Source: a virus | IMG/VR virus record: IMGVR_UViG_3300020205_001415 | Span: 1 to 47,116 of that record | Direction: 5' to 3' (one strand) | Length of the DNA stretch: 47,116 nt | In this document: in pieces, positions 13,308-19,592 of the stretch | How the letters are laid out: every line of letters begins with the position of its first letter | Numbering within the stretch: position 1 is the first letter of the stretch | The notes under the pieces: model-generated | Told to the model about the DNA's origin: nothing | The model's database searches: none | The model's input: the letters and a program-made list of their open reading frames with translations, nothing else | Position numbers and translations under genes: made by a program

Positions 13308-16300
13308 TTAAAAGTCAAAGTCGACAGACACATCAACATCCACATCAACATCAACATCAACATCCACATCAACATCCACATCAACATCCACATCAACATC
13401 AACATCAGTTTCTAACTCGTTAGCTCGCATTGCTTCGCCCATTTCGCGATCTTCTATGTCATAGACATCTTCGACTTCTGCCCCGTCAGCTTGGTTAGTA
13501 ACGTCCCCGCCCTGGTCAGCCTCGGGTGTCTCTGATCCCGGACCACCTTCCATATCGCGGGCCGCATCTTCTGCGTTGGCTTTGGCCAACGCTTCGGGTG
13601 ATGGCCGTTCAATGAAAGATTTAAGTTCAGCTACTCCTTTTGACACTACCGCGTTGAGCTCCTTAGTAACTAGATTCTTAACGGCCCCCACAGCTAGGCT
13701 CTGCACTTGTCCCAATAGGCCCGACACTAATGCGCTACCGCCGGCACCTGCGGCGTTTAATACTGAAGACACGCCGACTTCCAGGCCTGCTGTTCCAGCT
13801 CTAACGATATTTGGACCGCTAAATCGACTGGGCAATGCTGCTGGTACTTGGGGGAATCCTGCATTAGTGTATGTATTCAATCTTTGACCTACCGTAGAGA
13901 AATCTGTCGACCTCGAATTGTCATTTATCAATAATTTGTTCATAGTTATCGACTGTTCAAATTTTCCTCTATTGAACGTATTGTCTACTTTGATTATCTG
14001 GTAGATACCACTGTATATGCCGATGCCTGAGGTATACGGATTGTCACCAGGATTAGCTAATCCGGTCGTTTGATCGTAGTCTACGGGACTCCTAAAATTA
14101 AAATAGACATATAGTTCCCCCTTGTCAGTAAAGAGACTACCGTTGGGTGTTTTATCCACGGAAGCAGTTGTTGTATCTTTATCGAGATTTTGTCCGTAAA
14201 ACACATCATCTTGTTTTATTAAAGTTGGATCACCGATGATCTGCATTTTTAACTCGAGCAGATCGCCCGCCGCGCCTGACATCAATGATTTTTCTAAATC
14301 TGCGGCGGTGACCGACGACTGACTTTGGGCACTGTTCTTACTTTGTAACTGGAGATTTCTGGCTATATACTTCTTGGATGGAGGACCTATCTTGCCATAG
14401 TCATATACTAAAAATTTACTCTCATTCCTGGGTTGACAAGATACCCCTGTGTCTTCGTATCCTGGCTGTAGCTTATCGAATATCCCATTGGCTGTAGATG
14501 TAATTTGATCTTTTTCTTTGAATACCGTGATTGGCTGGATGAATAATGTATGAAGTTCAATTGTCACATCTAATACATCGCGATTGCTTTGATTTTCTCC
14601 TGAGACCTTACTACGACCTCCTGTGAACATATAGTTATATTCTTTAACAAATCCTGGTTGCCTACCGATAGGTGCGTAAGGATAGTCTACGGTTTTGATC
14701 CATTTTTTTACTATATAAGTCACTTCTAGACTATAGGTATTAGACTCCGGAATGTAGTCAATTATCTTGACCTTTGGGATAATTTTCCACCACTTCAATG
14801 GTTGGTTTCCTTGAAGGTTAGAAGATGTTGGGGATCGATTGTCGGGATCTTTACTAAGTTGAGATCCTATATATTCGCTATTACGTATGGCAAAATTGAT
14901 GAGATTATCTAGACGGGTACCGGCCGGTACCGACATGGCAGTTCCGTCAAATGATATGCCGCCTTTGTTTAATCCTGCCGCTTGTTGTGCTGTATTTGTC
15001 GCAGGATTTTTAGGATTTATAGGTGCGGCCTGTTGAACTGTATTAGGAGAAACAGATATTAATTTTGCATTCTTAATCTCATCATCTATCTCTACTTTGA
15101 CACTGGCATACTTGACTTTGGTGTACCCGTTCTTTTTTATACGATCATACCAAGAGTTCATAGCATTAGTAATACCGTTGGCTGAGAAAGTACTTTTTGA
15201 TAACTTATCAATCGACGCTTGAGATGCTGAATTAGCATTGGGCGATGTTGGGTCCGGTGCGCCAGGTGTATTACGTAATGTAGCATCTAATTCTGCCAAT
15301 AGCGCGGCATCAACCTCTCCTGTGCCTAATAGGTCGCCCACTGTCTTGGCTTTGACAGAGAACTGGGAAGGGGTAGCAAGATGTGTTTCCGACAATGCCT
15401 GACGATTATATGGCGAGGCCTTTATAGAATATTCTGCACCTTTGGTCGTGTTTCGACTTTTAATCTCTGTGAATAGTATTGGCAAGTACTTGGTCTGCTG
15501 CCTCAATGCCGGATCAGGGACGCCATCTTTATAACCAAAGAAAGAGATTTCTAACATAAAAGGGTGAAAGATCCAAGTCTTCCCCCCAAACATATCCACT
15601 GCATCTATCAACCTATCTAGTAGAGTGAATCCATTGGGCTCAAGTATAGTAAAACTAAGCGATATCGCATTGGTGTTTTTATTCTGTTGTGTGGTGTTTA
15701 TAGTAGTGTCTATTTTTAAGTTATCAAAGAAGAAATCTTCGATAAAATATGGATTCCTCAGGAAGTCATCACTTTGTCTGCCACCTCCTGCTATTAGTAT
15801 CGAACCTGGTTTTGGCTTATACTCCCCGGGATTTTCTACCAGCCGATTGAAACCCGGTATAGATAAAATATGTAAACTGAGATTATAGGTATACGAATCG
15901 TAATCGTGTAAAGGATTAGGACTAGGTATCTGTCTAATTTTTGACATATCAAGTACTTGGGGACCGGGCGGCGCTTTGAAGGGATTATAATATAATTCGC
16001 CGGTCTGATCATTGATGTGCCAGTTCTTGCTAATATTTCCGTCGTCGTCAAGAGGAGAGCCGGGATCTTGTGCTAATTTCTTTTGATCTTCTGTTAACTG
16101 TCCTTCAGTGTTCGCCCCGGGTATTGATCCGTCTGTACCGGCGGTACCGGCGGTACCGCCTGGACTTATCGGTTGTGTCTTTGCATCCTGTCCTATACCT
16201 GCTTTATATCCTTGACTAGCGTATTCTGTTTTTTGGAATCCGTTCCAAGGCCTCCAACCGTCTGGCTTGTTGGCCGCATAGTTTAGTGCGTAGTCAACAT

Positions 16301-16610
16301 TCTGCTTCCAATTGTTTGGATCAGTCGCATTTAACTTGGTATCTTTTTCAAATTGATTACCTAGACCACCGTTGGTATATAATTGATACGGTCCGTACGA
16401 TCTTTCTTGATTTCCGTTATTAACGACTTGAGATTGCCAGTGGGTCAGACCTTCACTTCTATATACTGCCAATGCTACGTTAGGATCAATGTTACGCTGT
16501 CTGGCCGCATCTACGATATATTGCCCAATAGTGCTGGGTGGTACAGTATAGCCAGGGCTGACCGTGTTGTTATTTAATATTCTTTGGCTGGCGGCGTTTA
16601 ATTCTGCCAT
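13308..16610 (-). CDS. Large baseplate hub protein with N-terminal transglycosylase-like domain and Asp-Val repeat tail
   Basis: A 1,100-residue protein between gp53 and gp5, the position of hub components in marine T4-like phages. Residues about 28-140 look like a lytic transglycosylase/lysozyme-like domain: AARQRNIDPNVALAVYRSEG with Glu53 as candidate acid, then YGPYQLYTNGG. The long middle (about 220-960) has no motif I can name, but contains a KWIKTVDYPYAPIGRQPGF segment and many beta-strand-like stretches; a gp27-like hub role is plausible and unproven. The C-terminal 120 residues turn Ala-rich, then very acidic (ESETPEADQGGD-type sequence), and end in 13 tandem Asp-Val pairs followed by SVDFDF. 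It starts 1 nt after the gp53 stop with a GGGAAGA ribosome site and ends 21 nt before gp5. Confidence 0.72.
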   Translation of the reverse strand: MAELNAASQRILNNNTVSPGYTVPPSTIGQYIVDAARQRNIDPNVALAVYRSEGLTHWQSQVVNNGNQERSYGPYQLYTNGGLGNQFEKDTKLNATDPNNWKQNVDYALNYAANKPDGWRPWNGFQKTEYASQGYKAGIGQDAKTQPISPGGTAGTAGTDGSIPGANTEGQLTEDQKKLAQDPGSPLDDDGNISKNWHINDQTGELYYNPFKAPPGPQVLDMSKIRQIPSPNPLHDYDSYTYNLSLHILSIPGFNRLVENPGEYKPKPGSILIAGGGRQSDDFLRNPYFIEDFFFDNLKIDTTINTTQQNKNTNAISLSFTILEPNGFTLLDRLIDAVDMFGGKTWIFHPFMLEISFFGYKDGVPDPALRQQTKYLPILFTEIKSRNTTKGAEYSIKASPYNRQALSETHLATPSQFSVKAKTVGDLLGTGEVDAALLAELDATLRNTPGAPDPTSPNANSASQASIDKLSKSTFSANGITNAMNSWYDRIKKNGYTKVKYASVKVEIDDEIKNAKLISVSPNTVQQAAPINPKNPATNTAQQAAGLNKGGISFDGTAMSVPAGTRLDNLINFAIRNSEYIGSQLSKDPDNRSPTSSNLQGNQPLKWWKIIPKVKIIDYIPESNTYSLEVTYIVKKWIKTVDYPYAPIGRQPGFVKEYNYMFTGGRSKVSGENQSNRDVLDVTIELHTLFIQPITVFKEKDQITSTANGIFDKLQPGYEDTGVSCQPRNESKFLVYDYGKIGPPSKKYIARNLQLQSKNSAQSQSSVTAADLEKSLMSGAAGDLLELKMQIIGDPTLIKQDDVFYGQNLDKDTTTASVDKTPNGSLFTDKGELYVYFNFRSPVDYDQTTGLANPGDNPYTSGIGIYSGIYQIIKVDNTFNRGKFEQSITMNKLLINDNSRSTDFSTVGQRLNTYTNAGFPQVPAALPSRFSGPNIVRAGTAGLEVGVSSVLNAAGAGGSALVSGLLGQVQSLAVGAVKNLVTKELNAVVSKGVAELKSFIERPSPEALAKANAEDAARDMEGGPGSETPEADQGGDVTNQADGAEVEDVYDIEDREMGEAMRANELETDVDVDVDVDVDVDVDVDVDVDVDVDVSVDFDF
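13329..13406 (-). repeat. Hexanucleotide tandem repeat, 13 units of GATGTK coding Asp-Val
   Basis: Seventy-eight bases made of 13 uninterrupted copies of a 6-bp unit, GATGTT or GATGTG on the minus strand. They code 13 Asp-Val dipeptides just before the stop of the hub gene. Because the unit is six bases, gain or loss of copies by slippage would change the length of the acidic tail without shifting frame. GATGTT and GATGTG units alternate irregularly, suggesting expansion in blocks. Confidence 0.97.
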
Positions 16611-17801: not shown

Positions 17802-17830
17802 TTGACACGGGCTCAAAAAACTGTTATTAT
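17802..17830 (+). promoter_or_regulatory. Sigma70 promoter of the gp55-gp47-gp46 operon
   Basis: A perfect -35 TTGACA (17802-17807) and a -10 TATTAT (17825-17830) separated by exactly 17 bases. The predicted start of transcription near 17837 leaves a leader of about 20 nt before the AAGGAG ribosome site. This is the strongest host-type promoter seen in the window and fits early transcription by unmodified host RNA polymerase. Confidence 0.8.
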
Positions 17831-17843
17831 TCAATGACTAAAC

Positions 17844-17849
17844 AAGGAG
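17844..17849 (+). promoter_or_regulatory. Strong Shine-Dalgarno site (AAGGAG) that sets the gp55 start
   Basis: AAGGAG lies 7 nt before an ATT codon at 17857 that opens a frame continuous with gp55. No ATG, GTG or TTG occurs in that frame between the upstream stop (17839-17841) and 17965, so this site argues for initiation at ATT. Confidence 0.75.
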
Positions 17850-17856
17850 TAATAAA

Positions 17857-18729
17857 ATTAGGCACAATTACCTCAACAACAAAGACATCCTTAAAGAGAT
17901 CCACAAGAGCAAGACTACGTATTGTTCGTATTCTGCTCCCGAACATTGTGATTATGATCTGATTTTGGACAGCGTCAAAAAGATTAATAAGAAGAATATA
18001 CTGGCGGCTAGGCGGTCAAGGGCAGAGCGATTGGGCAAATTGGCCCACGAAGCTGCGGTGTTGGCCACTGGCGAAAAGCAAAAGTCGGAACAATTCGCTA
18101 TCAAATACACCAAAATTTCTCCAGCTGATGTGGTATTCCGTATCATGACATGGGAACATATACCCCTGGATACTGTTAAAACACAGAAGGCACGCAATAC
18201 TGCCAAGGAACTGTTTGACGACGAAGAAGACCTCATCCACACTGAATACGACGAGTTAGACCCTGCACATAACAAATATGTCAAAGTCAACTTCCCGCCT
18301 TTCTTCCATTACAAAGTGGACGAAGAGGGTAATCCTTATGAGGTAGGACGCAGTCACTGGAAGGGGACCGTGGACCAAGGAGTGTTTTCCAAGGAACACG
18401 GGGCCATGACCAACAAACTGGCACTCATGTTTATCAAACTATGTGAACGCTATGCTACCCGATCCAATTGGCGCGGATACACGTACAACGATGAAATGCG
18501 TAGTCAAGCATTGCTACAGTTGAGTCAGATTGGATTACAGTTCGATGAGAACAAGTCTCAGAATCCGTTCGCTTATTATACGGCCGCTATCACTAATAGC
18601 TTTACCCGTGTGCTAAACATTGAAAAGCGTAATCAGAATCTCCGGGATGATATCCTAGAGATCAATAATCTCAATCCCAGCTATACTAGACAGAATTGGA
18701 CAAGTAGCACTAGCAATCATGAGGAGTAA
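17857..18729 (+). CDS. gp55: Late-transcription sigma factor gp55, apparent ATT start
   Basis: T4 gp55 is the small sigma-like factor that directs RNA polymerase to late promoters. Here the conserved C-terminal core is clear: WRGYTYNDEMRSQALLQLSQ, KSQNPFAYYTAAITNSFTRV and LNIEKRNQNLRDDILE. The first ordinary start codon in frame is TTG 17965 (254 aa), which has no ribosome site. The frame is open upstream to 17842, and those 36 extra codons read RHNYLNNKDILKEIHKSKTT, a typical gp55 N-terminus as I recall the family. A good AAGGAG sits 7 nt before the ATT at 17857, so I place the start there (290 aa). The ATT could be genuine or an ATG misread. It is the first gene after a sigma70 promoter, consistent with gp55 being made before late genes. 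Confidence 0.88.
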   Translation: MRHNYLNNKDILKEIHKSKTTYCSYSAPEHCDYDLILDSVKKINKKNILAARRSRAERLGKLAHEAAVLATGEKQKSEQFAIKYTKISPADVVFRIMTWEHIPLDTVKTQKARNTAKELFDDEEDLIHTEYDELDPAHNKYVKVNFPPFFHYKVDEEGNPYEVGRSHWKGTVDQGVFSKEHGAMTNKLALMFIKLCERYATRSNWRGYTYNDEMRSQALLQLSQIGLQFDENKSQNPFAYYTAAITNSFTRVLNIEKRNQNLRDDILEINNLNPSYTRQNWTSSTSNHEE

Positions 18730-18734
18730 AGTAA

Positions 18735-19592
18735 GTGTCAAAAACCTTATATATTACGAATCCAAATTTTAATTTTTCTAAAATTAATAAAAATTCTTTA
18801 CTCCTAACTAATTTAGATATTCCATTAGATCATGATGAATATCATACGTCTCTAGGAGATTTGCCTGCTGAATCTATTTTATCCATAATAAACAAATTTA
18901 GTTTGGTAACATTTATTCCTGATTTGTTTATTATCGATTCAGATATATATTCTGAAACTATATTCTTATTGACATATATTAGTCATCGTGTGCCCGTAAA
19001 TAATCTTATTAAGAGTAATGTGCAGACATTTACCAATTTAGATGTTAGTAACAGACCTAATAAACCAGTATTATGGGTGTTTGGGTGTAGCCATAGTCAC
19101 GGTGTAGGTTTGCTCAAAGGAGAATTACGATACAGCGACATCATTAGTGACACTTTAGGGTTACCGCTATATTCTATCACTAAGCCCGGTAGCTCATTAC
19201 ATTGGAGCCTAAGGCACTTGACTAATGCTAATATTTTTAAAAATGATCTGGTAATTTGGCAGATAACTACGCCAGAACGTGTTTCTATCTATAAAAATAA
19301 TGTTCGAGAAATAATGCTAGCAAATACATCCGATAAGCACTTATTGGAAGTATATTCGGATGAACAGATAGACTTCAACCATTTGACTTTACTAAATTTT
19401 GGTACTAGATATTTAAGATCTAAGAAGATAAAATTTTTAATGACGTCGATTGGTCGAAGACCGTCGGAATATGCCAAATATCCTGAATATTGTTATGTAC
19501 CAAATTTATATATAGATCGCGGGGCAGACCGGTCACATGCAGGTCCTTTGAGTCACAAGAAGCTTGCTTCTGCCCTACTTGATCGTGTATAA
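18735..19592 (+). CDS. SGNH/GDSL-like hydrolase family protein
   Basis: A 285-residue protein of the SGNH-like kind, from two sequence blocks. Residues about 112-127 read VLWVFGCSHSHGVGL, resembling block I where a nucleophile Ser follows a strand. Near the C-terminus DRGADRSHAGPLSHKKLA gives a D-x-x-H pair as in block V. The first 100 residues have no recognised domain. If active it could remove acyl or similar esters from a sugar or protein, but the GDS Gly-Asp-Ser is replaced by Gly-Cys-Ser, so activity is uncertain. It starts at GTG 18735 behind a GAGGAG formed by the last codons of gp55. The gene is visibly more AT-rich than gp55 and gp47 on either side, which suggests later acquisition. 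Confidence 0.6.
   Translation: MSKTLYITNPNFNFSKINKNSLLLTNLDIPLDHDEYHTSLGDLPAESILSIINKFSLVTFIPDLFIIDSDIYSETIFLLTYISHRVPVNNLIKSNVQTFTNLDVSNRPNKPVLWVFGCSHSHGVGLLKGELRYSDIISDTLGLPLYSITKPGSSLHWSLRHLTNANIFKNDLVIWQITTPERVSIYKNNVREIMLANTSDKHLLEVYSDEQIDFNHLTLLNFGTRYLRSKKIKFLMTSIGRRPSEYAKYPEYCYVPNLYIDRGADRSHAGPLSHKKLASALLDRV

Follow-up and report, generated by a model that had tools for sequence, protein, structure and literature searches.

Functional AUU start codons are known for few bacterial genes. IF3 is reported to discriminate against AUU, AUC and AUA, from which AUG, GUG and UUG are exempt (PMC4611024). Among the closest known systems, infC is described as autoregulated through its AUU start (PMC5472188), which in the E. 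coli sequence is followed by AAA and lies behind a strong Shine-Dalgarno (SD) sequence. According to the same report, Streptomyces sigR encodes a cellular sigma factor that is limited by an IF3-sensitive GTC start codon; this limit balances an anti-sigma factor, and repression by IF3 was experimentally shown (PMC5472188). In S. aureus, initiation profiling and reporters proved conserved non-canonical starts behind extended SD sequences for the cellular genes cvfC1 (AUU) and ccpN (AUA), one of which encodes a transcription regulator (PMC13009471). That source puts the output of these AUU/AUA starts at about 10% of AUG output in poor medium and describes a rise in rich medium for ccpN but not for cvfC1.

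The late sigma factor gene gp55 in the stretch of viral DNA analyzed here (a virus record of 47,116 bases, referred to as the window) combines traits of these systems. As in infC, a start codon of the IF3-discriminated class follows a strong SD sequence. However, the infC product limits its own synthesis, whereas the product here is a sigma factor rather than IF3, and no feedback loop is apparent for gp55 because none of the related phage records yielded an IF3 gene. By analogy with sigR, gp55 would be a sigma factor limited by its start codon, and it shares with the S. aureus genes a conserved non-canonical start behind an extended SD sequence. Cultured T4-like and jumbo phages (PA5oct, RaK2, CBB and others) encode gp55 of the same protein family, and PA5oct also resembles the window in having baseplate/tail and SbcD-like neighbors beside gp55. 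Unlike the window, all nine cultured phages checked, PA5oct included, start gp55 at ATG, so the AUU/AUC trait is so far known from uncultured phages alone. Our search of titles and abstracts in the open-licence PMC literature found no description of an AUU or AUC start on a phage sigma factor. Thus, AUU-started gp55 represents a known sort of translational control for which we know of no earlier case in this gene or organism group.

Start region of gp55 in the window

The gp55 gene occupies positions 17857-18729 on the plus strand (290 codons and a stop codon). A 295-residue query matches phrog_12791 (E 1.2e-74) over residues 6-284 and phrog_234 (E 5.6e-23). By this family match, the product is the late-transcription sigma factor, and its late-promoter role with RNA polymerase is presumed from the family. 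All of the following features lie on the plus strand. A predicted sigma-70-type promoter (TTGACA-17-TATTAT, positions 17802-17830) agrees with the consensus in 11 of 12 letters, and promoter-like sites with at least 9 of 12 letters precede 45 of 61 distinct AUU/AUC gp55 genes, compared with 30 of 462 intragenic control positions. An in-frame TAA (17839-17841) bounds the frame upstream, which is then open from 17842, where it begins ACA AGG AGT AAT AAA ATT AGG CAC AAT TAC, with precisely the 41 codons ahead of TTG 17965 that the first-pass annotation had counted. The AUU start codon (17857-17859), flanked by AAA and AGG, is preceded at a distance of 7 nt by the strong SD sequence AAGGAG (17844-17849), again as that annotation described. 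The N-terminal residues of the frame read IRHNYLNNKDILKEIHKSK, and a conserved NYLNNKD block comes immediately after the start position in the aligned gp55 relatives. The first canonical in-frame codon, TTG (17965-17967), is located 36 codons downstream of ATT 17857 and, as had been claimed, is not equipped with a ribosome site: the 16 nt upstream of it are tgattatgatctgatt, with no SD sequence. In some relatives (for example L007, L011 and L095), an inverted repeat, GTTAG-N6-CTAAC, overlaps the -10 element of their gp55 promoter; it is possibly an operator. By a loose pattern, this repeat occurs in 9 of 62 AUU/AUC genes and 15 of 92 canonical genes, and it is degenerate in the window.

Comparison with relatives strongly supports the earlier proposal that gp55 starts at AUU. 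In four viral scans of IMG/VR, the queries were the protein of the window and those of three divergent relatives with ATT; from the 247 loci obtained, 142 distinct gp55 genes, including the window and three named phages, remained once duplicates and loci truncated close to the start were removed. Where these genes align with ATT 17857, ATG or GTG is found in most closer relatives, and ATT in 18 of the 142, the window included. Relatives with a canonical start (ATG, GTG or TTG) begin at this place or within several codons of it, and none starts at the place of TTG 17965. By comparison, 62 distinct genes have ATT or ATC as their aligned start codon. Compared with L001, L002 and L095, respectively, the 35 codons between ATT and TTG contain 14, 17 and 13 synonymous codon changes versus 8, 7 and 9 non-synonymous ones. 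Ahead of ATT, the adjoining five codons contain no synonymous change but 2, 4 and 3 differences that alter the amino acid or introduce a stop. Because codon changes after ATT are mostly synonymous, the region ahead of TTG 17965 is, on the evidence of these alignments, under protein-level constraint.

Two readings would dispense with an AUU start. AUU starts are reported to be very rare (PMC5622118), which favors an ATG misread as ATT by sequencing or assembly, the simple alternative that the first-pass annotation had offered. This error reading is refuted by the relatives and carries a negligible probability: 57 distinct ATT genes come from many metagenomes, L326 (95.9% identical to the window) has the same ATT and SD sequence, and near-identical ATT copies come from separate metagenomes (L272, L288, L299, L315 and L321). 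Initiation at another codon is also highly improbable. An in-frame canonical codon does lie 6-44 codons upstream in 4 of the 18 ATT genes, but the other 14 have no in-frame ATG, GTG or TTG between the upstream stop and ATT, and L002 has a TAA just two codons ahead of ATT; an upstream in-frame start was therefore rejected. The window also contains ATG 17834, which opens a 42-residue ORF (17834-17962) out of frame with gp55. A frameshift from this ATG was rejected because the ORF, which is not conserved, is broken in L326 by a TAA after two codons and because the ATG lies at about the expected transcription start. Initiation at TTG 17965 was rejected because it would forfeit the constrained N-terminus, including the NYLNNKD block, and has no SD sequence. 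The ATT genes vary widely in the distance to their first downstream canonical codon (5 to 91 codons), and in 13 of the 18 found by protein search this distance is at least 34 codons. We consider it nearly certain, from these comparisons, that the AUU start of gp55 is real, conserved and gene-specific. Gene callers limited to ATG, GTG and TTG must miss the gp55 start because it is ATT. In one relative, L281, the gp55 open frame extends for 617 residues from ATT, approximately twice the usual length, through an insertion or a fusion.

Start codon and SD sequence across gp55 relatives

The kind of start codon is coupled to the strength of the SD sequence. A strong SD sequence, defined as [AG]GGAG or GGAGG within 14 nt, precedes 18 of 18 ATT starts versus 2 of 72 ATG, 0 of 19 GTG and 2 of 3 TTG starts (4 of 94 canonical starts; Fisher p 2.6e-17 with kinship ignored), where the start of canonical relatives was called automatically as the candidate with the best SD sequence. 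The ATT-started gp55 genes thereby share the strong SD sequence of the IF3-discriminated start class of the infC, pcnB and sigR kind. A non-ATG start is found in 40 of 112 gp55 genes, and a weak start is thus frequent across the family. No difference in predicted RNA structure around the start codon separates AUU/AUC genes (mean -3.4 kcal/mol) from canonical ones (mean -3.9 kcal/mol; p 0.23).

Pattern scans of the whole IMG/VR collection give the same picture. The pattern GGAG-N7-ATH ahead of the gp55 N-terminal motif retrieved 79 stretches, of which 78 are gp55 (72 ATT, 6 ATC and no ATA), whereas GGAG-N7-ATG/GTG/TTG retrieved two stretches, neither of them gp55; the spacing was fixed at 7 nt in both scans. 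Conversely, AGGA[ACT]-N6-8-ATH gave no matches, and AGGA[ACT]-N6-8-ATG/GTG/TTG retrieved at least 120 stretches; of the 80 readable ones among those listed, 70 are gp55 (39 GTG and 31 ATG). Both ATH patterns demanded A[AG][AG] after the start codon. Start codon and SD sequence thus segregate almost completely, with GGAG accompanying ATT/ATC and AGGA followed by a base other than G accompanying canonical starts. The six relatives that start at ATC (L292, L282, L294, L296, L297 and L320) have a strong SD sequence as in the ATT genes.

The association recurs on gp55 trees, which are quick searches from which the number of changes, but not their direction (gain versus loss), can be read. On a tree of 112 rows with at least 58% identity plus two outgroups, the ATT label needs 10 changes, at least 6 of them on supported branches. 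Six independent pairs on supported branches differ in start type, and the SD sequence shifts in the matching direction in an average of 5.9 of the 6 (median p of the sign test 0.03). A larger tree of 156 rows (154 of 187 after de-duplication and length filtering, plus two outgroups) includes 57 ATT and 5 ATC genes; it requires 14 changes between AUU/AUC and canonical starts, and for ATT by itself no fewer than 10. Ten independent pairs on this tree agree in SD direction in 7.8 cases, disagree in 1.0 and show no difference in 1.2, in a sample whose ATT/ATC rows were partly picked by a pattern demanding GGAG; the SD test therefore rests on the protein-found set and on the four pattern scans. The switch is seen between sisters: L004 and L098 (ATT, TAGGAGA) are joined to L144 (GTG, TAGGAAA) with 99% branch support, and the promoters of the three are nearly identical. 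For scale, a survey of bacteria and archaea is reported to have found that one of 61,358 ancestral AUG starts had switched to AUU, as had one of 5,080 GUG starts (PMC5622118). Since ATT has been swapped with GTG or ATG plus a weak SD sequence several times, AUU is not indispensable to gp55. A search for the host through genome contigs yielded just six relatives with 52-54% identity, all from metagenome-assembled genomes and all with an ATG start.

The unusual start is restricted to gp55. ATG is the start codon of the SbcD-like neighbor in 102 of 104 loci. It is also that of the small baseplate gene in 99 of 101 loci, with one more locus unplaceable; a 274-residue tail gene, unplaceable in 102 loci, was left out of this count. 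Among 129 other genes in the ATT loci, AUU with a strong SD sequence gave three internal matches versus 1.7 expected, no excess over chance. In the large record G018 (338.5 kb, 426 ORFs), gp55 provides the sole convincing start of the ATT/ATC/ATA/CTG type with a strong SD sequence, by the criterion of a non-canonical codon and a strong SD sequence before a long frame with no canonical start nearby. Eleven other matches were obtained; 10 have a canonical codon at, before or within a codon of the place, and one, a CTG, opens an 80-codon frame that is not convincing as a gene. The gp55 gene is single-copy in all seven large records.

Proposed restraint of gp55 synthesis and its possible basis

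The combination of AUU with an unusually strong SD sequence suggests that gp55 production is deliberately restrained at the first step of translation. In the mechanism that we propose, a near-consensus host sigma-70 promoter would supply abundant, short-leader gp55 mRNA, and the strong SD sequence would keep the 30S subunit on AUU in its A-rich context. The initiator tRNA would pair with AUU at two positions only, and host IF3 would reject such complexes, so that gp55 synthesis would be slow and would vary with IF3 activity and with the stringency of initiation. The late sigma factor would thus be scarce despite a well-transcribed mRNA. In related lineages, a weak SD sequence with AUG or GUG may limit gp55 instead. 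Provided that the host is ordinary, the AUU start with the strong promoter and SD sequence probably makes gp55 translation low and IF3-sensitive, a reading that combines the observed promoter match, SD sequence, codon, conservation and co-variation with IF3 discrimination inferred from published work. The tie of gp55 synthesis to IF3 level that the first-pass annotation had suggested agrees with this anatomy and with publications on AUU codons. The IF3 in question would be the host's because none was found in related phages: a search for phage-borne IF3 (PF00707) gave matches in 0 of 18 and 0 of 11 records, 29 in all and mostly fragments. The tRNA genes over threshold number none in the 18 first records and occur in 3 of 10 large records, and the anticodons read from pieces of two large records give no sign of a special AUU initiator tRNA. 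A literature search on IF3 in T4-infected cells found nothing.

Whether IF3 sensitivity is itself the selected function of AUU is a separate matter, and we regard this as somewhat less likely than not. Near-complete segregation of start codon and SD sequence, together with the restriction to one gene, hints that AUU is kept for IF3 dependence. Under such selection, the AUU/AUC start might act as a sensor, with free host IF3 relative to free 30S subunits setting the amount of gp55 despite strong transcription; we regard this as conceivable and somewhat doubtful. If it were true, the early-to-late switch would be governed by the state of translation in the infected cell, and the gate would have been gained and lost several times by joint swaps of start codon and SD sequence. 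The main rival, which fits nearly as well as IF3-linked regulation and has a close to even chance of being correct, is that a low gp55 level is all that is needed. AUU with a strong SD sequence would then be one of several near-equivalent solutions, GUG or AUG with a weak SD sequence being others, and IF3 sensitivity would be a by-product. The repeated exchange between these solutions hints in this direction, and the high share of non-ATG gp55 starts beside neighbors that almost always use ATG also favors tuning of the level. The joint shift of start codon and SD sequence is what compensation predicts, a general trend according to PMC5622118, and E. coli pcnB is translationally limited by AUU, as the title of Binns and Masters 2002 states. 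Furthermore, S. aureus provides a point against the IF3-regulated reading, as an AUU start with a strong SD sequence is described there with low output and no response to medium (PMC13009471). However, tuning of the level alone does not readily account for the scarcity of intermediates, since a strong SD sequence is nearly exclusive to AUU/AUC and a weak one to canonical starts, and the other genes examined do not pair weak starts with strong SD sequences. A further rival holds that a RegA-kind translational repressor binds the conserved AGGAGA...AAAATTAAA, with AUU inside the operator. RegA operators are reported to overlap starts in T4 (PMC3014915), and 51 of 62 distinct AUU/AUC genes have AAA before the codon and 51 of 62 have AAA after it, the latter count including a part of the set for which the search pattern forces A[AG][AG] after the codon. 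In 11 of the 62, however, ACC, ACT, GCC, GTT, ATT or GTC takes the place of the preceding AAA while the SD sequence and AUU/AUC remain, and we rate this operator as very unlikely.

In all, a single phage gene carries AUU, or AUC in a few lineages, in 62 distinct genes, with repeated switches that alter the ribosome-binding site too. These genes constitute a natural series for tests of start-codon/SD compensation and of IF3 control, and they suggest that the factor responsible for late transcription is braked at the level of translation.

Several minor observations accompany this analysis. The large ATT phages L391 (G019) and L382 (G018) have about 40 and 49 tRNA genes, respectively; both G018 and G019 encode predicted tRNAs with anticodon CTA, and G019 also one with TTA, which would read stop codons. 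In the window, a GTG-started ORF of 285 residues (18735-19592, plus strand) without a PHROG match lies between gp55 and the SbcD-like gene and is missing from the PA5oct gene arrangement. On the minus strand, positions 13308-16610 encode an 1100-residue protein with a long C-terminal run of alternating Asp and Val.
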